In this document: positions 2,893-46,020 of the stretch, piece by piece | Layout: the number at the start of each line of letters is the position of its first letter | Position numbering within the stretch: the first letter of the stretch is position 1 | Source: Pseudomonas sp. | GTDB lineage: Bacteria > Pseudomonadota > Gammaproteobacteria > Pseudomonadales > Pseudomonadaceae | Assembly (NCBI RefSeq): GCF_030696055.1 | Contig: NZ_JAUYNP010000329.1 | Coordinates: 1-46,470, forward strand | DNA length: 46,470 nucleotides | Reading direction: 5' to 3' | Program-made: the position numbers and the translations under genes | The notes under the pieces: model-generated | Told to the model about the DNA's origin: nothing | Seen by the model: only the letters and a program-made list of their open reading frames with translations | Database searches by the model: none

Positions 2893-2930
2893 CTTGCCCA
2901 ACGCTCCCCTAGCGGGCAGAATGCGCCCGT

Positions 2931-3104
2931 CCTAGGGGAGTAGTCTCCCGCGAGCGCCAGCTCGCCCGGCACGCGTCAACATACTTGCTCAACCGAGCAT
3001 GGCGCGTGCGACCCAAGGCCCACATATAAATGTGGCCTGCGGTTTGACCAGACCTATGACACGCACACCTTACCCGGGGCGGAAGGCTGTACGTGTCATA
3101 GCCA
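2931..3104 (+). promoter_or_regulatory. yybP-ykoY (manganese) riboswitch leader
   Basis: Between rsmC and the TMEM165-family gene lie the conserved elements of the yybP-ykoY class in order. GGGGAGTAG is at 2935-2943, CGTCAACATAC at 2974-2984, and a GACC...AGACC segment near 3046-3054, followed by a pairing TATGACACG/CGTGTCATA (3055-3063 with 3092-3100). This class senses Mn2+ and is known ahead of Mn exporters. Boundaries are approximate. The start codon of the exporter is 27 bases past the 3' stem, so control could be of translation or of termination; no strong terminator hairpin with a U-run was seen. Confidence 0.85.
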
Positions 3105-23024: not shown

Positions 23025-23071
23025 GGGGGATGGGTATGGTGGGATACAGCTTTTGGCCAATCGCAGAAGCT

Positions 23072-23149
23072 GGTGGACAAGCAAGCGTTGTCCACCCTAC
23101 ACGCCACTCAAGTCAACGTAGGGTGGAAAACCGCAGAACGTTTTCCACC
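23072..23149. repeat. REP-like repeat pair (GGTGGAMAA units)
   Basis: GGTGGACAA...TTGTCCACC (23072-23097) and GGTGGAAAA...TTTTCCACC (23122-23149) are two hairpins with CCCTAC/GTAGGG between them. The units are in opposing orientation, as in bacterial interspersed mosaic elements. Confidence 0.55.
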
Positions 23150-23172
23150 AATGGCCATCCAGACTACCTCGC

Positions 23173-24135
23173 TTAACGCTCATCGGCTCGGTGCATGATG
23201 TATTCCGCACCTTCTCTCAAAGCTGTTATTCCTTGCCGCGGTGGCAGGGTGCTCGGCACATTGACCTCCCAGACCAGACCGAGTCGTTGCAACAATTGAA
23301 TGAAGTGCCAGCCTAGATCGATTTGCCCAGGGTACAGCCCGTGACGAGCAGAAGCGGGAAACGCATGATGATTGTTGTGCCAACTCTCACCAAAGGTAGG
23401 TATCGCGGCAATGGGGACGTCATGCGCCTGCACACCTGCGCCATCCACCTCCCAGCTCTGCGGTCCCCGCGTATGGGCGAAATATGAAATAAACCAGTGC
23501 ATGGTGGTGCAAGCAGCCACCCTTACCGATATTCCCCAAATGACCCACGGCACGCCGCCGATCACGTACAGGACGATAGCTATCGGCAATTGCTGCAGCA
23601 TCCAAGTTCGCTCAAGAAACTGGTAGAACCGGTCTTCCAATATCTCCTTCCCAGGATCAAACCCAGGCGGATGATCGAGAACAAACTTGCAGTGCAGGTT
23701 ATACCAAGCATCTTTGAGTAACCCTTGGCGGTGGGCCAAGTAATCGTGACAAGCCGGCTGGCGTTGCGACCAGTCACGGGTGTCATGGGTACGGATTGTC
23801 CAAAGGGGGCCGCCTATCCCGACTATGGTTCCCATCCACACGAGAAAACGCTCAAGGCCTTTCGAGCATTTGAAACTGCGGTGGATAAGACGTCGATGAA
23901 AACCCACCGAATGTCCCGCACAGAGGGTTGCAGCACTGAGCAGCAGGAACACCAGGAGCGCTCCCCAGCTGAAATACAGCGGGGCCAATATAAGCGCCGT
24001 GGAGAAAATGAAGCTGTTCCACAGAGAGCGCCATGTGTCCCAGACAATGATTCCAGTCAGCGGGCTGGCACCGTTGTCCAATATTAAAGAATTGACCTTG
24101 AAGGCACCTTCTGCGGCACCGGCATGAGTAGACAT
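23173..24135 (-). CDS. Membrane fatty-acid (acyl-CoA) desaturase
   Basis: 320 residues from the ATG at 24135. The membrane di-iron desaturase histidine boxes are visible: HSVGFHRRLIH (box 1) and SWHNNHHAFP (box 3). The second box is the variant RTHDTRDWSQRQPACHDYL instead of HRxHH. At least four hydrophobic stretches are present. It should put a double bond in a fatty acyl chain. The start overlaps the stop of the upstream Coq4-motif gene (TGATG), so the pair is translationally coupled. Base composition is visibly lower in GC than the neighbours, suggesting transfer. The track start at 24192 lies inside the upstream gene. Confidence 0.85.
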   Translation of the reverse strand: MSTHAGAAEGAFKVNSLILDNGASPLTGIIVWDTWRSLWNSFIFSTALILAPLYFSWGALLVFLLLSAATLCAGHSVGFHRRLIHRSFKCSKGLERFLVWMGTIVGIGGPLWTIRTHDTRDWSQRQPACHDYLAHRQGLLKDAWYNLHCKFVLDHPPGFDPGKEILEDRFYQFLERTWMLQQLPIAIVLYVIGGVPWVIWGISVRVAACTTMHWFISYFAHTRGPQSWEVDGAGVQAHDVPIAAIPTFGESWHNNHHAFPASARHGLYPGQIDLGWHFIQLLQRLGLVWEVNVPSTLPPRQGITALREGAEYIMHRADER

Positions 24136-24698
24136 CAAACTATCTCCGAGAAGGCCACATAGAGTGCGAGAAAAGGTAGGGCTATCACGCAAGCCGAGCA
24201 GGCAACGAGCACCAGATATTCGAGGTAGTGTCGGGGCTTCGCTGAAACTGGGCCATTGGGCAGTATCTCTGCCCTGATCTGCGCCACGCTCTTATCGAGA
24301 AGTTGCTCGTAGCTCCAGCCGGCATAAAGCGTCTTGCTGTGCTTACCGCGCACAAAGGCTGAGAAGGTGCGCTTGGGTACCAAGCATGCCCCCATGCTTA
24401 ACAACGGAATGCAGAAAAGCGTGGTGAGCGGATTGGGGTATCTGCCGGCTGCAAACTCCCAAGCCGCAATCTCGAACTCACCGCTTGGACGCAGTGGATA
24501 ACCGGTCAACACATGGTGGAGATCATGAAAAGGAATGGCCTTGCGCCGCCATGCGAAGTTGGGAAGATACACTTTCAAATCCCGACAGCCGAAAGGTGAC
24601 CACCTTTCGGCGTTGATACCGCCATCAACTGGGAAGCCATGCTGCTGATAGAACTGAGTTACTGCTTCTCTTAGAGAAGATCCCGGGTTGATCTCCAT
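24135..24698 (-). CDS. Coq4-motif membrane protein coupled to desaturase
   Basis: 187 residues. It carries HDLHH (residues 58-62) followed after exactly 11 residues by Glu74, i.e. the HDxxH-x11-E metal motif of Coq4 proteins. Two hydrophobic segments follow (LFCIPLLSMGACLV and a C-terminal LVLVACSACVIALPFLALYV), unusual for soluble Coq4. The known Coq4 role is in ubiquinone biosynthesis, but this one is coupled to a desaturase gene, so a role in lipid modification is equally possible. Function not known. Lower GC than flanks. No strong SD was seen before its ATG. Confidence 0.65.
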   Translation of the reverse strand: MEINPGSSLREAVTQFYQQHGFPVDGGINAERWSPFGCRDLKVYLPNFAWRRKAIPFHDLHHVLTGYPLRPSGEFEIAAWEFAAGRYPNPLTTLFCIPLLSMGACLVPKRTFSAFVRGKHSKTLYAGWSYEQLLDKSVAQIRAEILPNGPVSAKPRHYLEYLVLVACSACVIALPFLALYVAFSEIV

Positions 24699-38362: not shown

Positions 38363-38750
38363 GGGGCCGATTAGGATTCGACGCCGGTAGCAAAACTTGA
38401 GGGGCATGCCGAGTTGGTAACAGAACTCGTAAATCCACTGTTGCAAAACTCTATAATTGCCAATGATGACAATTACGGTGCCCAACTAGCTGCGTAAGCA
38501 GCCTAGTCGCACTTCTGGTAGCTTCGGCTCCAGCAATCATTAGGGGATGTCTGTAAACCCGAAATGATTGTCATATAGAACAGAATCGTCGCCTAGTACG
38601 TTGTGGACGAAGCGCCTAAAACTTACACAACTCGCCCAAAGCACCCTGCCCGTCGGGCGGCCAAGGGTTAACTCAGTAGACACGGCTAAGCATGTAGAAC
38701 CGATAGCGGAGAACTGGCGGACGGGGGTTCAAATCCCCCCGGCTCCACCA
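38363..38750 (+). ncRNA. ssrA: Transfer-messenger RNA (tmRNA)
   Basis: 388 nt from GGGGCCGATTAGGATTCGACG to GGCTCCACCA. The 5' GGGGCCGA and 3' CCGGCTCCACCA pair as the tRNA-like acceptor. The T-arm is GGGGGTTCAAATCCCCC. The tag frame (38459-38497) reads ANDDNYGAQLAA then TAA. It rescues stalled ribosomes with SmpB. The 3' end is the probable island attachment site. A terminator follows at 38762. Confidence 0.97.
38727..38750 (+). other. Probable island attachment site in the tmRNA 3' end (attL side)
   Basis: GTTCAAATCCCCCCGGCTCCACCA is the tmRNA 3' end. A P4-type integrase gene begins 185 bp downstream and foreign-looking cargo follows, as in ssrA-targeted islands. A second copy marking attR was not found in the window, so it should lie beyond the right edge. 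Confidence 0.7.
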
Positions 38751-38761
38751 TTACACCATCT

Positions 38762-38787
38762 AAAGACGTCCACGGACGTCTTTTTTT
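38762..38787 (+). terminator. Terminator after tmRNA
   Basis: AAAGACGTCC-AC-GGACGTCTTT followed by TTTT, 12 bp past the tmRNA CCA. It lies on the element side of the attachment site. Confidence 0.9.
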
Positions 38788-38861
38788 GTGCCTGAAACCC
38801 AGTAAATACGGGGCTTTCAGCACCATCAGTGTCCGTGAGCGTCCAGCAAGATCTATGTCTT

Positions 38862-38935
38862 TTGGTATTCCAGATGGTATTCCAAGCCTTCAGGTGCTAA
38901 TTTTTGGAATACCAAAACATCTCGTGGAATACCAA
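38862..38935. repeat. Four TTGGTATTCC-type repeats upstream of integrase
   Basis: TTGGTATTCCA (38862) and TGGTATTCCAA (38875) are followed by two inverted copies TTGGAATACCAA (38904) and TGGAATACCAA (38925). The last overlaps the first base of the integrase ATG at 38935. Arrangement is two direct then two inverted. Likely integrase arm-type sites, a repressor operator set, or both. Confidence 0.7.
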
Positions 38936-40191
38936 TGTGCGCTCAAGCTACTCGCCTTTCTGAACTCAAGATCAGAGCCGCCAAGCCTTTAGAGAAGGAT
39001 TACGTCCTGGTTGATGGTGACGGCCTTCAGATGCGAGTGAGAATCAATGGCTCTAAGCTGTGGAACTTTAACTACTACCACCCTGTAACCAAGAAGCGCA
39101 TCAACATGGGGCTTGGCACGTACCCTGAGCTGTCTCTTGCCCAAGCACGAAAAATGACCATTGAGGCAAGGGAGCTCCTGGCTACTGGTATTGATCCGAA
39201 AGAGCATCGAGATACCCTGAAGCAGGCTAAGAAGGCTGAAACCGAACACACATTTCAGAACGTAGCGACGGCTTGGTACGAGCTCAAAAAAGACTCGGTC
39301 ACGCCTGCTTATGCTGAGGACATCTGGCGCTCGCTGACGCTGCACGTGTTTCCGGATTTGGGCACCACGCAGATCTCAACCATCAGCGCACCACAAGTCA
39401 TCAACCTGCTTCGGCCACTCGAAACCAAAGGCAGCCTTGAGACCGTTAAGCGGCTGTCACAGCGACTCAACGAGATAATGACGTACGGGGTCAACTCAGG
39501 ACTGATTCATGCAAACCCGCTTACCGGGATTCGCTCCGTCTTCAAAAAGCCGAAAAAGAAGAACATGGCAGCACTTGCTCCCGATGAGCTAAAAGAGCTC
39601 ATGGTGGCAATTGCCAATGCCAGCATAAAAAGGACCACGCGCTGCCTTATCGAATGGCAGCTCAACACCATGACCCGCCCAGCAGAAGCAGCCACCGTGC
39701 GCTGGGTCGACATCGACGTCGAAAAGCGAATATGGACGATCCCAGCTGAACGCATGAAGAAACGCCGCACGCACATCGTGCCGCTCACTGATCAAGCATT
39801 GGCGCTTTTGGAGGCGATCAAACCCTATAGCGGGCATCGAGAGTACGTATTTCCTGCAGACCGTAATCCACGCACCCACTGCAACAGTCAGACTGCCAAC
39901 ATGGCACTAAAGCGCATGGGCTTCGAAGGGCGCCTAGTCAGCCACGGCATGCGCTCAATGGCAAGCACGATCCTCAACGAACACGGCTGGGATGCTGAGT
40001 TGATCGAAGTAGCGCTCGCCCACGTCGACAAGGATGAGGTTCGCAGCGCTTACAACCGAGCGGAATATATCGAACGCAGACGCCCGATGATGGCTTGGTG
40101 GAGTGAGCACGTTCAGGAAGCAGCTACAGGCAATCTGTCGGTATCAGCCATCAAGGAAAACAGGGACAGGAAAGTCGTTTCGATACGTTGA
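38935..40191 (+). CDS. Tyrosine-type site-specific integrase (P4-like)
   Basis: 418 residues. An N-terminal arm-binding DUF4102-like domain (LSELKIRAAKPLEKDYVLVDG) is followed by a SAM-like core-binding region. The catalytic domain has Arg in NTMTRPAEAATVRW, His-x-x-Arg in SHGMRSMAS, His in LAHVDKDEVRS and the nucleophile Tyr in AYNRAEYIERR. It should recombine the element with the 3' end of ssrA. The ATG at 38935 sits right after the four repeats; no good SD, so an upstream start cannot be excluded. GC lower than the core. Confidence 0.93.
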   Translation: MCAQATRLSELKIRAAKPLEKDYVLVDGDGLQMRVRINGSKLWNFNYYHPVTKKRINMGLGTYPELSLAQARKMTIEARELLATGIDPKEHRDTLKQAKKAETEHTFQNVATAWYELKKDSVTPAYAEDIWRSLTLHVFPDLGTTQISTISAPQVINLLRPLETKGSLETVKRLSQRLNEIMTYGVNSGLIHANPLTGIRSVFKKPKKKNMAALAPDELKELMVAIANASIKRTTRCLIEWQLNTMTRPAEAATVRWVDIDVEKRIWTIPAERMKKRRTHIVPLTDQALALLEAIKPYSGHREYVFPADRNPRTHCNSQTANMALKRMGFEGRLVSHGMRSMASTILNEHGWDAELIEVALAHVDKDEVRSAYNRAEYIERRRPMMAWWSEHVQEAATGNLSVSAIKENRDRKVVSIR

Positions 40192-40389
40192 TTAGAGAGC
40201 TTCTCGTCGATAGCAACAGGCAAAAATCCGACCAAAACCGGACATTCGCCTCCAGCATGTCGGCGCTGCGCTGACTTAAACGCCGCGCTGCCGTGTAGCG
40301 GTCTAGTGAAACCGGATATTCATTTAGCGGCGACCACTCGATCTCAAGAAACGGACAAGATCGCTTCTAGCGCTCAGCGCTGTTCCTAC
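40192..40389. other. Gap between integrase and ABC-3C operon
   Basis: About 200 bp between convergent genes. Nothing gene-like; no clear terminator hairpin. GACCAAAACCGGACATTCGC at 40230-40249 has an inverted near-match at 46218-46246. Confidence 0.4.
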
Positions 40390-43300
40390 TCACTCACCGC
40401 TAACAGTTCTACCCGGCCATGGACTTTCTGAGGCCGTAACGCCCCCAGGGGTTGGGGCGAGTGACCATATGCGTGCTTCGATCCCGTCATTTTGTAGCTT
40501 ACGCATGAAGTAACGGGCTTGAAGGGCGTCATGGGTTGCAATCACGACCTGGAAACCATGATCGACGATGTAATCACGAAGCACGTCGAATACCGACGCT
40601 GCATGTACCAGGTCATGATGCTGGGTTGGGTCGTCTAGAAGCAGGCCGCGCCAGGAAGACCACTGATGATCCAGCGCCATTGACAGCAGGAAGGTTAGCT
40701 GCAAATCCGTCAGCTGCGCCTCACTGGCTATCGCCGGTACCGGGACTAATTCCCCGTGTAGCGGCACCGACACTTCAGCACGCTCCTTTCTATAGAGGCT
40801 GCGAAAATCCAGATTCGTTCCGGTAAAACGCTGCTCTCTAACCACTCGTTTCAAGAGCGCCTGCCATCGCGGCACCACGGAGAGCACGTGTTTTTGAACG
40901 TTAGCGATTTCGGTGGATAGGTACTGATTGAGCGTGTCCATCGCATCGGATAGCAGCGACAGACGCTTCTGGCCCGATTGTTCTTTCTCTACTCGCTGAC
41001 AAAGATTGGCGGTGAACTCATCCTCCGACAACTCGCCGCGCCGACGATCTAGGAGACCCTGAGCCAGGCGCGCCTGCTCCAATTTGCCCCAGGCACCAAT
41101 CTCGACTTTGATAGTTTGAAGCGTTTCTGAGTGTCGAGCCAGCTCGGTGACGGAGGACTGCAACTGAGCCTCTCGACTGCTCGCAACCTCGGCAGTTGGA
41201 TCGCCGGGGAACGATAGCTGGCGCCAGGAAGCTCGGACAGTAGCGAGTCGAGATTGGGAATCGGATAGCTGTGTTTCCAGGTCAGATACCCTATTCGTCA
41301 CGTCGGTCAGTTGAACCTGCTGCCGATCCAAGGCGAATTGCTCGGCCGTCACCTTGGCGCTCAGGTCAGTTATCTGATTGGCATTTTGGTTTTGCTCCAA
41401 GGACAACTCTTCAAGCGTTTGCGCTGGCGGAGCGTCTGCAGTGATTGCTGCCAATGCCGCCGTCGCCTGTTCGAGCCTGCTGCTGGCCTCTGATCGGCCC
41501 TGCCGCGCGGAATCCAATGCACGAACAGCCGAATCGTAGGCGTTTTTGGTCTGATCAAAGACATCGGTGGCTAGTGGGGGCGCAAGATTACGCTGCTTCT
41601 CGTCGAGCAGAAGCTTGGCTGAAGCATTTGCATCTTCGCGACGTCGGATCGACTCTTTCGCGAGGGGTACCGTATCGCCGCCGAGCAGAACATTGGTTCT
41701 TAGACCGTCGATGTCCGCCGCCAGGCCCGCCTGCTGGAATTTCAGTTCAACAACCCTACCCTTGCATGCTCTCAATTCTGCTTCGGCGTGTGTTATCGCC
41801 TCTGTGCACTCACGCAAAGCATCAGTTGCCTTCTTGACGCGTCGCTCGGCGTCGACAACATTGGGGTCGATTGCCTCTAAAGCCTTGGCAACACGTTCAT
41901 GAAGACCTACTGCTCCGTGCTCTTCGCCACATAAGGGGCAGTCACCACGATCGCTTGGCAGGTGGGCCGCGATGGACGCAACGGCTTGCCTTATCGAATC
42001 AGCGGCTGAGGTCAAAGTGTCGTAATGGCTCTTCGCGGCCAGCTCCTCAGCTTCAGCGGATACCCTGGACGAAACTGCGGTTCGAAGCTGTTCTTGAAGG
42101 ACATCCTCTTGCGCTTCTTCACCACTGATAGAGCCCGTAACATCTGCAACGTGCTGAAGTGTCTGCTCCCAGCGTTCCAGGAGTTGATGAGCGGTGAGAA
42201 GGTCAGCGTCTATCTGTAGCAACGCCTTGCGCTGTCTATTGATGAGGTCATGTTGGACGCCGAGCTGCTCGTTGCCTTCATGCTCGCTACGCAAGGTGGA
42301 GGCTACCAACTCAGCGCTGGTCAGAGTTTTGTCAGCGGTCTCCAGTACCTGCTTGCGTAGATCGACCGCCTCTTTGGCCTGACTCTCATTCACGTGCCGA
42401 TTGAGCTGCTGACCAATAGCATCACGCTCACCTTCTGCAGCGACCAACTCCTGCTGGAGTCGCTCATGATTGGCAGCGACTAAGGCGCGATCTTGTTTCT
42501 TCTGTGCAAGCTCCTGCCTAACAGTGATGAGATCGTTCCCAAGCTGCTCAGAACGTGCTTGCTCAGACACGAACCGGCCTATGAGCCCGTCAACCTCAGC
42601 CAGCGCCGTGATCTGATCACGAAGTCGGTCTAGCTTGGCTTGTACCAATTGCTCCAACGCATCGTGCACCGTTTCCAAGCCATCCTGGCCCAGTGGCGGC
42701 ACCAGTAGGCCGGCGGGCAACTGCTCGAAGCTCTGCGCCTGGCGCGCGATGCCCGAAATGGATTCAGCGATGTTTTCTTTGCTACGAAGTGCACCTTGAG
42801 ACTGAGAAGCCGCCAGATCCCGTTCAAGGGTCAAGCTTTGCCATTCACCAAATTCTGCTTCGAGTGTTTCGAGAGCGCTCTTGGCTTGTTTCAGTTGCTC
42901 TGTGAGCGCGCGACGAATGCCGCCAAGGGCAGAGCTTACCTGGGTGCCATCTTTGCCAATCGGCAACCTGGCCAACTGAGAGCCTGCAACTTTGGCATCT
43001 GCCTTTACCAGCCATTCCCCTTCGCGCTGATCAAGCAGATGGGTAAGCCTCAGCAGAAATGGAATGTCCTCAGGGTTTGTATCTGGAAAAAGAGGGCTGA
43101 GATCGCCCGTTCTTTCAACGTCACCAATTTTGCTCACCTGAGCAGAGGCTTGCACATCACCGAAATCCAGGCTCACTCGAGCCATGGTTTGAGTGTCTCG
43201 AATGATTGGTGAAAGATTCTCGCCAAGCCGGGAGATCTTGCCGGTGAGACCGAACTCGATGGCTTCGAAGATCGCCGTCTTTCCGGTGCCATTGGGGGCA

Positions 43301-43392
43301 AGGAGAATGGTTGCACCGCGGCTAAGCTCAATCGTGGTGTCGGCGCCAAACCTGCGGATGTTGGAAAGCGTAATGGACTTCAGCTGTTTCAT
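40390..43392 (-). CDS. SMC/Rad50-like ATPase of ABC-three-component system
   Basis: 1000 residues. Walker A APNGTGKT at 32-39. A long coiled-coil body rich in Gln/Glu/Leu (about 160-840) is split in the middle by CPLCG (about 484-488), a Rad50 zinc-hook-like CxxC. A degenerate signature region (SEAQLTDLQLTF, no LSGG) precedes Walker B LLLDDP and the H-loop IATHD near 917-945. This is the ABC ATPase of the conflict-system type (ABC-3C). The start overlaps the stop of the middle gene by 4 bp (ATGA). GC is lower than the core genes. Confidence 0.85.
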   Translation of the reverse strand: MKQLKSITLSNIRRFGADTTIELSRGATILLAPNGTGKTAIFEAIEFGLTGKISRLGENLSPIIRDTQTMARVSLDFGDVQASAQVSKIGDVERTGDLSPLFPDTNPEDIPFLLRLTHLLDQREGEWLVKADAKVAGSQLARLPIGKDGTQVSSALGGIRRALTEQLKQAKSALETLEAEFGEWQSLTLERDLAASQSQGALRSKENIAESISGIARQAQSFEQLPAGLLVPPLGQDGLETVHDALEQLVQAKLDRLRDQITALAEVDGLIGRFVSEQARSEQLGNDLITVRQELAQKKQDRALVAANHERLQQELVAAEGERDAIGQQLNRHVNESQAKEAVDLRKQVLETADKTLTSAELVASTLRSEHEGNEQLGVQHDLINRQRKALLQIDADLLTAHQLLERWEQTLQHVADVTGSISGEEAQEDVLQEQLRTAVSSRVSAEAEELAAKSHYDTLTSAADSIRQAVASIAAHLPSDRGDCPLCGEEHGAVGLHERVAKALEAIDPNVVDAERRVKKATDALRECTEAITHAEAELRACKGRVVELKFQQAGLAADIDGLRTNVLLGGDTVPLAKESIRRREDANASAKLLLDEKQRNLAPPLATDVFDQTKNAYDSAVRALDSARQGRSEASSRLEQATAALAAITADAPPAQTLEELSLEQNQNANQITDLSAKVTAEQFALDRQQVQLTDVTNRVSDLETQLSDSQSRLATVRASWRQLSFPGDPTAEVASSREAQLQSSVTELARHSETLQTIKVEIGAWGKLEQARLAQGLLDRRRGELSEDEFTANLCQRVEKEQSGQKRLSLLSDAMDTLNQYLSTEIANVQKHVLSVVPRWQALLKRVVREQRFTGTNLDFRSLYRKERAEVSVPLHGELVPVPAIASEAQLTDLQLTFLLSMALDHQWSSWRGLLLDDPTQHHDLVHAASVFDVLRDYIVDHGFQVVIATHDALQARYFMRKLQNDGIEARIWSLAPTPGGVTASESPWPGRTVSGE

Positions 43393-43988
43393 TGAGAGTC
43401 CTCTTCACCAAACGCTGAAACCTTCAGGGCTTCAGCGATATCACCGCCTGATTTTCCAGACAACAGTAATTCTCGCCACGTTTCGAGATGCGGAACCACC
43501 CAGGAATGCGCCAAGCCCAGTGAGCCCAGGGACGCTAGCAGTGGATCGCTGATGTTGCCTGAGCTACCGGAGGGCGAAAGGGTCGCCAAGAAACTACGGT
43601 CTAGAAAGGAGCCGACGTCTTCCTGCTCTCTGACCACTATCTTTCTGCAGAAGCGATCGTCCGTCTCGAGGCGAGCTGCGTCTTCTGACGCAATGCCTTC
43701 GATGAGCATGAACATATAGAGGTCGGCTGTTTGCGGCTCCGCAAGCATGTCACGGACATCCGCTGCCCACCGAAAGGCGCCTTGGATTTTTGCCGAATCG
43801 AAGGGAAAAGCTGCGATCAACACAGTCCGCCAGCCCGCACCTTCCTGATTGACTCGTTTGAGCTGCACTGTAGTAGAGTCGATCTCGATCGACGGCGAAG
43901 CCAGTTCAAACGTATCGGACGAGAAAACTTCATAGCGACCTTCGGCACGCTTTGAGATGGCCGCAACCATCTCCGGGATTGTTAGCAT
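43389..43988 (-). CDS. ABC-3C middle component (possibly MC1-like)
   Basis: 199 residues, no known enzymatic motif. LETDDRFCRKIVVREQEDV near residue 128 resembles the CRK(I/V)V segment I associate with middle component 1 of ABC-three-component systems. Position between the large effector-like gene and the ATPase gene, one base after the upstream stop and overlapping the ATPase start by 4 bp, also fits. Its role is probably a link between ATPase and effector. Assignment rests mainly on context. Confidence 0.65.
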   Translation of the reverse strand: MLTIPEMVAAISKRAEGRYEVFSSDTFELASPSIEIDSTTVQLKRVNQEGAGWRTVLIAAFPFDSAKIQGAFRWAADVRDMLAEPQTADLYMFMLIEGIASEDAARLETDDRFCRKIVVREQEDVGSFLDRSFLATLSPSGSSGNISDPLLASLGSLGLAHSWVVPHLETWRELLLSGKSGGDIAEALKVSAFGEEDSQ

Positions 43989-43989
43989 T

Positions 43990-46020
43990 TCAGAGTCCTT
44001 TCGCGTTCGTCTCGATGGCTGACTTGCGGGCGAGCAGTCGATCTTGCCATTGCTTAGTGAAGTGTTGTCGCACAGAGGCCAGGCTCCCCTTACGCAGATG
44101 ATTAAACGCCCCAGACCGGGTTACGAGCAGGTGCGGCTGGCGCTCTGCCGCCATGCTGGTAGCCGCCTCGGCGTCGTCAGCCATCCCTATATTCAATAGC
44201 TCTGAGGGGGAAGCGCTCACGCCTGACAGGATTACGACCGGAGCAGGGGAAGGGCCGATAACCATCATCAAAGGATCGTCAGACAGCTCACGGACTTCTG
44301 GAGCGCTGCCTGCGGGGCCAGACCAGTACTTAAGCGCGATGCTCAGCACCTGCCCACAATCCGGGAAGGACGCCCAGTCGCTGCCGCTTCCACCGACCCC
44401 AACCGCAACCAGCAACAGAATTTCAACGGCGGTGACCAGCAAGTCTAAGGTGCGGGGGCCGAGGCGAAGCGCGTGCTTCGCGTTTTTCCCTTCCGTTTCC
44501 GGGTACAGAAGCTGTTCCAGAAATTTTCGGCGGCTCTCGGGATTCTTGGCGAATCCGTCCAACCATTCCAGCCAAACCGTTTCCATGGCGTCAGCGAGGG
44601 CCGGATCTGTAATCACGGTAAGCTTTTCAGAGACGCCTTGAATGAGGCGCTGCCACATTAGGTCGTCCATAGCGCTTTCGAGCGCATCAGCTTCCGTTCG
44701 GGCCGCGCCTTGTGTCTTGAATTCATGATCCAGCGCGCACGCAAGACGCTCAGGGTTTTCGAGCCACGGGAGGTTTTTCAGGTCGCTCTCTGTGCAACCG
44801 AGCGTGTGCCCGACTTCATGGCCGACGCTACTGCGCCACGTTGGTTCGCCTAGCATCAGACTTTGACTGCCATTAGGCAGGTGCAAAGCCATGCGCAGTA
44901 TTGCTGATGGAAGAGTGAGGTTTGCTCCGATGGAGGGCGTGTATGGGGCGTATATCCTGAGCTTCCGGTTTCCAGGCTGACTACTCCACATGTGCTCCAC
45001 AACCCCCTGCGCAGATCGGGGAGCCACCCCACCAAGATCATGAGTCCCTGCGAACGACCATGACCTGCCGGCCGGCAGAACTTCGTCGCCTAACAGATAC
45101 TGAGCCCAGGTTTCGATATCTGGGCGAAGCTCGTCCTTGAGCTCTCGGACTACCGCATGGCAGCCCAAAGCTGACACGTCAGATGTCTCGCCAGTGATGT
45201 ACGTTATCAGGCGTTCAAGCGCCCTTTTCGGATCGGTAAAGTGCCGGCCAAGAGATTCAGCGCAGCGTTGCTCCAAGGTCGCATCGTTGCCAACGCAGAC
45301 TATGGTGACTCGACGCAGGGTGTCACTGATCTGGGCCCAATCTTTGAACCCACACCATGTCGTGAGCCAAAGATAGGTTCGCTCTGTGGGGCCGTCCTTG
45401 CGATTGGCAAGTTCGTCCAGATCAAGTCCGTCCTGGCGACACAGTTTGCATAAAGCATCCACATGGTCGACGGTGAGTTCGGCCTTGACCTTCAGGCTAG
45501 CACCCACGAGGGTCAATTTGAATTGACGGTCGGGTAGGGCGTCGAATGTGCCCTGTCTGGCATGCTTCGCGAGGCTAGCGAACGCTGAATCCAGGACAGA
45601 TTCTACTTGTGGTGGTTTCTTGGGCTTGAGAGGTGCATTCAAAGGGGGAGGGTTGGGGCCAGCTACGGGCTGCAGCGTAGCAGTGGCAGATCCACTCTTT
45701 GCACGCTTGGCCAAGTACTTTGCCTTGTCGGGATCTTTGGTGCAGAAATCACTGGCTTGGCGTTTGACTTGCAGATGCTCAAGGGAGTTAGGGGAATGCT
45801 GGATCACGACGTCATCCCACTCCTCGATACCGCCCTGTTCGGCGCCGATCGCGAGTGGAGCGCGCCTCCCATCAAGGAACTTCTCAAGCATGTCCGACAA
45901 GCGCTGAGCAATCACTAGCCTCTCGTAGTGAGACTTCTGCTCCAGCCGGAACCTTCTGATCATACCGACATCCCTTACTTCATTATTGTCCCAACCAGCT
46001 CCGCCAGCAGTGTGCCACAT
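43990..46020 (-). CDS. ABC-3C effector-like protein with N-terminal nuclease motif
   Basis: 676 residues (start could also be the ATG at 45963, MIRRFRLEQK; both have an SD). N-terminus: GGIEEWDDVVIQ then LEHLQVKRQ (residues 64-88) reads as a PD-(D/E)xK-type site (E, D, Q-x-K), like DUF4297/Cap4-type dsDNA nucleases. The middle is unassigned and contains HEVGHTLG (about 400), an HExxH-like match. The C-terminal third should be the ABC-3C-specific part. It ends one base before the middle gene. Expected to cut DNA upon activation by the ATPase complex; inference. Confidence 0.6.
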   Translation of the reverse strand: MWHTAGGAGWDNNEVRDVGMIRRFRLEQKSHYERLVIAQRLSDMLEKFLDGRRAPLAIGAEQGGIEEWDDVVIQHSPNSLEHLQVKRQASDFCTKDPDKAKYLAKRAKSGSATATLQPVAGPNPPPLNAPLKPKKPPQVESVLDSAFASLAKHARQGTFDALPDRQFKLTLVGASLKVKAELTVDHVDALCKLCRQDGLDLDELANRKDGPTERTYLWLTTWCGFKDWAQISDTLRRVTIVCVGNDATLEQRCAESLGRHFTDPKRALERLITYITGETSDVSALGCHAVVRELKDELRPDIETWAQYLLGDEVLPAGRSWSFAGTHDLGGVAPRSAQGVVEHMWSSQPGNRKLRIYAPYTPSIGANLTLPSAILRMALHLPNGSQSLMLGEPTWRSSVGHEVGHTLGCTESDLKNLPWLENPERLACALDHEFKTQGAARTEADALESAMDDLMWQRLIQGVSEKLTVITDPALADAMETVWLEWLDGFAKNPESRRKFLEQLLYPETEGKNAKHALRLGPRTLDLLVTAVEILLLVAVGVGGSGSDWASFPDCGQVLSIALKYWSGPAGSAPEVRELSDDPLMMVIGPSPAPVVILSGVSASPSELLNIGMADDAEAATSMAAERQPHLLVTRSGAFNHLRKGSLASVRQHFTKQWQDRLLARKSAIETNAKGL

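Follow-up and report, generated by a model that had tools for sequence, protein, structure and literature searches.

COQ4 is known as a Zn-dependent C1 decarboxylase that acts in vitro on a CoQ precursor through an HDxxH-x11-E motif (PMC7615680), and its Nostoc homologue (PDB 6E12) carries oleic acid together with Mg, the latter bound at the same motif (PMC9774615). The desaturase SCD1 uses nine histidines at its metal site (PMC12345192), with Asn265 used in addition (PMC8533217). The di-iron enzymes of the AlkB and FA_hydroxylase (PF04116) type resemble desaturases in being His-rich membrane iron oxidases that act on lipids or alkanes. In the window, that is, the whole 46,470-nucleotide stretch of Pseudomonas sp. 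DNA analyzed here (NZ_JAUYNP010000329.1), a relative of COQ4 and a relative of SCD1 are encoded by two directly overlapping genes:

24135..24698, minus strand: Coq4-like protein, 187 aa (translation; PF05019; AF2 model; PDB structure matches)
23173..24135, minus strand: desaturase-like membrane protein, 320 aa (translation; PF00487; invariant residues of alignment A4; SCD1 fold match)
24133..24137, minus strand: TGATG stop/start overlap of both genes (window sequence; TAATG in the related loci L035 and L036)
23761..23796, minus strand: altered box 2 region IRTHDTRDWSQR, desaturase residues 114-125 (sequence, translation, alignment)

The ATG of the desaturase gene at 24135 shares its A with the TGA stop of the Coq4-like gene, so the overlap is a single base. 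A TTG at 24192 is only the mechanical start of the desaturase ORF, and the homologues in L035 and L036 begin at the overlapping ATG. The sequence-only reading had described a lower-GC pair joined by TGATG, and it was right in coordinates, gene order, overlap and composition: the pair has 54.5% GC, whereas the sequence preceding the tmRNA island averages 63.0%, and a value this low is reached by 2.6% of windows of the same size. Purifying selection acts on both genes (dN of about 0.17 for the desaturase and about 0.4 for the Coq4-like gene relative to L035/L036, with dS saturated).

By scanning 84,980 species genomes and a phylum sample with a pattern search, we found the pair in at least four other genomes, a lower bound because the scan was non-exhaustive. 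An uncultured Pseudomonadales genome (L035) and a Cellvibrionaceae MAG (L036) keep the gene order of the window with a TAATG overlap and have other flanking genes, which means that the one-base stop/start overlap is preserved in three genomes. The remaining two, both from one other family, carry the reversed order, with a GTGA overlap in G688 (L119/L177) and an 8-nt gap in G1286 (L176); within the family of G688 the pair occurs in 2 of 200 genomes. The gene-neighborhood check proposed by the sequence-only reading thus gave a divided answer, since the pair recurs and yet is rare in absolute numbers. That reading had counted rare adjacency elsewhere as evidence against a link. The absolute numbers do show such rarity, but it does not hold in the Coq4-like clade that matters here, in which five of five members adjoin a desaturase. 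A desaturase is absent from the vicinity of most Coq4-like genes, and nine genomes with unpaired desaturases of the altered-box clade have no Coq4-like gene.

The surroundings of the pair belong to the genus. The flanking DNA was matched in all 150 genus genomes searched; among the matches listed there, none but the window's own covers the pair. Only three other Coq4-like matches, all distant, were seen in 146 relatives, and none of them lies beside a desaturase of the altered-box clade. The pair is therefore an insertion-like, low-GC segment amid the genus's own genes, a setting that makes contamination unlikely. An exact empty insertion site was not found in relatives, where G1398 has both flanks listed on one contig, about 12 kb apart. 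The plasmid collection gave no Coq4-like match, and the desaturase matches opened there had no Coq4-like neighbor; the viral contigs yielded no relative of the Coq4-like protein.

The two partners also keep together in phylogeny. In a tree of 91 Coq4-like proteins, the five paired ones are split by a branch with a support of 98 (starred) from 78 unpaired short Coq4-like proteins, and the true bacterial Coq4 proteins stand far off as a group with a long branch of its own. The five paired desaturases also make up one group (support 89/86, not starred), whose two halves are the reversed-order pair and the same-order trio. A conserved association of the two genes, as first proposed from the window alone, is thus supported by five genomes, two gene orders and congruent clades.

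The motif reported for the Coq4-like protein is exact: HDLHHVLTGYPLRPSGE, at residues 58-74, reads HDLHH-x11-E. It is the sole HDxxH-x11-E match among the six-frame ORFs of at least 100 aa in the window, and none appeared in 50 mononucleotide shuffles. The extra membrane segments described along with it were borne out in part, as there is one long C-terminal TM-like helix (residues 155-186), while the model places the hydrophobic helix 90-106 in the core of the domain. This C-terminal helix is missing in both reversed-order versions (family f255). The AlphaFold model, predicted with confidence (pLDDT 94.7), best matches two Coq4 homologues in the PDB, 6E12 and 3MSQ, with probabilities of 0.98 and 0.92, modest E values of 0.014-0.1 and TM scores of 0.35-0.41; no other plausible PDB match was found. 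Because the PF05019 profile (E=4e-4, 20.2 bits) stays under its 22.9-bit gathering cut-off, we do not class the protein as a confirmed Coq4. It has in common with COQ4/PF05019 proteins (human COQ4, Nostoc Alr8543 of 6E12 and N. punctiforme 3MSQ) the HDxxH-x11-E motif and a weak profile match across the motif domain, but it is shorter, scores below the Pfam cut-off and bears the C-terminal TM-like helix.

The short Coq4-like family is widespread in Pseudomonadota, Myxococcota, Acidobacteriota, Planctomycetota, Bacteroidota and others, with the metal motif almost invariant over 66 members. PF05019 reaches E<=0.001 in just 7 of these 66 relatives, and none of the NCBIfam models reaches the family. 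No neighbor is common to the whole family, only lineage-specific ones. Myxococcota genes often lie next to a TetR-type regulator (18 loci, e.g., L038, L042, L044, L045, L048, L050, L053 and L055), and in the Acidobacteriota loci L079, L080, L088 and L095 the Coq4-like gene directly follows a methyltransferase gene, which in L080 has a match of the UbiE/COQ5 type.

The desaturase scores 37.4 bits with PF00487, above the 29.7-bit cut-off, and matches SCD1 in both sequence and fold (fold E of about 1e-9); its score with the DesA family model NF049918 is 39.9 bits, below the 400-bit equivalog cut-off of NCBIfam. It falls within a clade with 100/100 support whose metal site differs from that of canonical desaturases, among them the ones found on viral contigs. 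The latter (33 relatives in IMG/VR, L127-L159), which served as outgroup, all have canonical His boxes where aligned. With AlkB and PF04116 enzymes there is no detectable sequence homology, and PF04116 appears only as a neighbor of related loci.

Alignment A4, of 20 clade members whose identity to the window protein falls as low as 38%, reveals what separates the clade. Box 1 (HxxxxH) is retained with invariant H80 and H85, and so is the third box, WHNNHH (H253, H256 and H257), in most members. However, where canonical desaturases have HRxHHxxSDxxxDPH as box 2, the clade reads H-D/E-xRD[W/Y]xQRxxxCH (with CPPH in L021), and all 20 members are without HxxHH. Having tested for this box and found it absent, we do not class the protein as a canonical desaturase, and the atypical second histidine box noticed in the window gene proves to be a trait of the whole clade. 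The TWLVN segment ahead of the last helix His reads HWxxx in the clade, by which the Asn265 equivalent is gone. Exactly nine histidines are invariant in all 20 members (H75, H80, H85, H117, H213, H221, H253, H256 and H257), two of which, H75 and H213, are clade specific and lie on the helices that bear box 1 and H221. Compared with SCD1/PF00487 (4YMK, 6WF2 and 4ZYO), the clade therefore shares the fold, boxes 1 and 3 and a His equivalent to H269, but differs in box 2, in the missing Asn265 equivalent, in the new invariant H75 and H213, and in the invariant Cys129 and Asp121.

The loss of box 2 histidines together with two invariant histidines at new positions suggests a relocated metal site, with H75 and H213 as candidate ligands. 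Because the desaturase structure is predicted with only moderate confidence (pLDDT 72, about or below 50 in the box 2 region), this rewiring is proposed from the aligned sequences; residue equivalence in box 2 is itself ambiguous, as MAFFT and HMMER place H117/D118/D121 differently against canonical desaturases. The open-licence literature searched yielded nothing relevant on a desaturase with an atypical box of this type or on a link between Coq4 and a desaturase.

Related loci supply the other two sides of a triangle, and their neighbors point to membrane-lipid oxidation. Coq4-like genes have a PF04116 FA_hydroxylase gene next to them in L180 (G1150) and L066 (a Bacteroidota MAG), as does a clade desaturase in L022 (G388); in L029 the gene adjoining the desaturase resembles these PF04116 neighbors. 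Together with the Coq4-like/desaturase pair itself, these three-way links suggest that Coq4-like proteins and membrane iron oxidases act on the same lipids. Therefore, we favor an O2-dependent acyl-lipid tailoring pair in which the Coq4-like protein acts on or presents the lipid. As a separate observation, ArsR/SmtB-type regulator genes, mostly divergent, are adjacent to or one gene off altered-box desaturases in L017, L018, L019, L021, L024 and L176; in L176 an ArsR-type regulator gene and an unassigned 199-aa gene lie ahead of the pair.

With respect to metal content, activity, substrate and order of steps, the pair would work as follows. The two genes would be co-translated and move horizontally as one lipid-tailoring unit. 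The desaturase-like protein may be a FADS-fold membrane non-heme iron oxidase with a rewired metal site, whose probable reaction is the oxidation, by desaturation or hydroxylation, of an acyl chain in a lipid that is CoA-bound or part of the membrane. The Coq4-like protein, with the C-terminal helix as its putative anchor, would hold a divalent metal through HDxxH-x11-E, bind the same hydrophobic substrate or product, and perform or enable the next step, which by analogy with COQ4 may be a metal-dependent decarboxylation, lyase or hydrolysis-type reaction. We hold this picture of a co-translated, horizontally moving unit, with a rewired-metal-site oxidase and a membrane-anchored Coq4-like metalloprotein working on the same substrate or product, tentatively, at slightly less than an even chance. 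The rarity of the pair, the unpaired clade desaturases and the mostly solitary Coq4-like genes count against it.

The nearest competitor, which we consider rather improbable, makes the Coq4-like protein a non-enzymatic lipid-presenting or scaffold subunit that helps substrate reach or leave the desaturase. The oleic acid carried by 6E12 (PMC9774615) would fit such a role, as would the C-terminal membrane helix and the fact that Coq4 was at first considered merely a structural organizer of the CoQ complex (PMC12938788). However, the metal motif is near-invariant across the 66 members, as expected for a metal-using site, and the nine genomes with a related desaturase manage without a Coq4-like gene.

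The sequence-only reading had left open a lipid or a quinone step; the lipid half remains plausible, given the desaturase fold and the PF04116 genes by related loci, and the quinone half is not supported. A pair that modifies ubiquinone or another quinone, with the Coq4-like protein as C1 decarboxylase, would fit the shared HDxxH-x11-E motif, the apparent Coq4-like fold and the known activity of COQ4 in eukaryotes. But a family search for ubi genes turned up UbiD and two UbiH/I-type hydroxylases in the host, and with these kept ubiquinone synthesis does not require a Coq4 decarboxylase. The Coq4-like protein is also under the Coq4 cut-off and separated from true bacterial Coq4, which sits on its own long branch, and the pair is missing from the other searched genomes of the genus. 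A quinone role is thus unlikely, and we give this version of it very little weight. No quinone gene was identified beside the pair, and the host genome has several other desaturases.

That the desaturase clade is catalytically dead, with a structural or sensing role, seems equally improbable: its members lack HxxHH and an Asn265 equivalent, but nine invariant His over 20 divergent members, two of them clade specific, argue for a conserved metal site. Finally, low GC and absence from relatives would suit two genes that only co-travel in a foreign segment with no common pathway, but this is equally improbable given the same partners in five genomes with two gene orders, differing flanks and congruent trees.

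The pair is real, conserved at low frequency and explained in part, and its most interesting part is the rearranged His set of the desaturase clade. Carried further, the tailoring reading would describe a FADS-fold clade in which two metal histidines have shifted from the cytosolic box 2 to TM helices (H75 and H213), so that the iron site is relocated or of mixed His/carboxylate type, and which acts on a bacterial lipid not yet described, together with Coq4-like metalloenzymes of a second, unnamed family anchored in the membrane; this fuller version is possible but on balance doubtful. If the ligand set is truly rewired, the clade would illustrate how the metal center of a membrane iron oxidase can be rebuilt, and it would bear on what decides between desaturation and hydroxylation. 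For the short Coq4-like family, present in several phyla and mostly missed by Pfam and NCBIfam, the pair is a first concrete functional context, and it allows a connection of the Coq4 fold with non-quinone lipids to be tested.

Several other features were seen elsewhere in the window. The region 38363-46020 is a defense island at a tmRNA gene: after this gene come a tyrosine integrase (38935-40191), then an AAA ATPase (40390-43392), a 199-aa protein and finally a CTD2/ABC-3C protein (43990-46020), with PADLOC matches of the Lamassu type (LmuB/LmuA). An Rfam match to the manganese riboswitch (yybP-ykoY) lies at 2923-3057 with 48.1 bits, slightly over the gathering score. The intergenic stretch at 23061-23180 holds a palindromic repeat (GGTGGAAAACCGCAGAACGTTTTCCACC at 23122-23149), and its approximately 120 bp are 82% identical to an Azotobacter plasmid.
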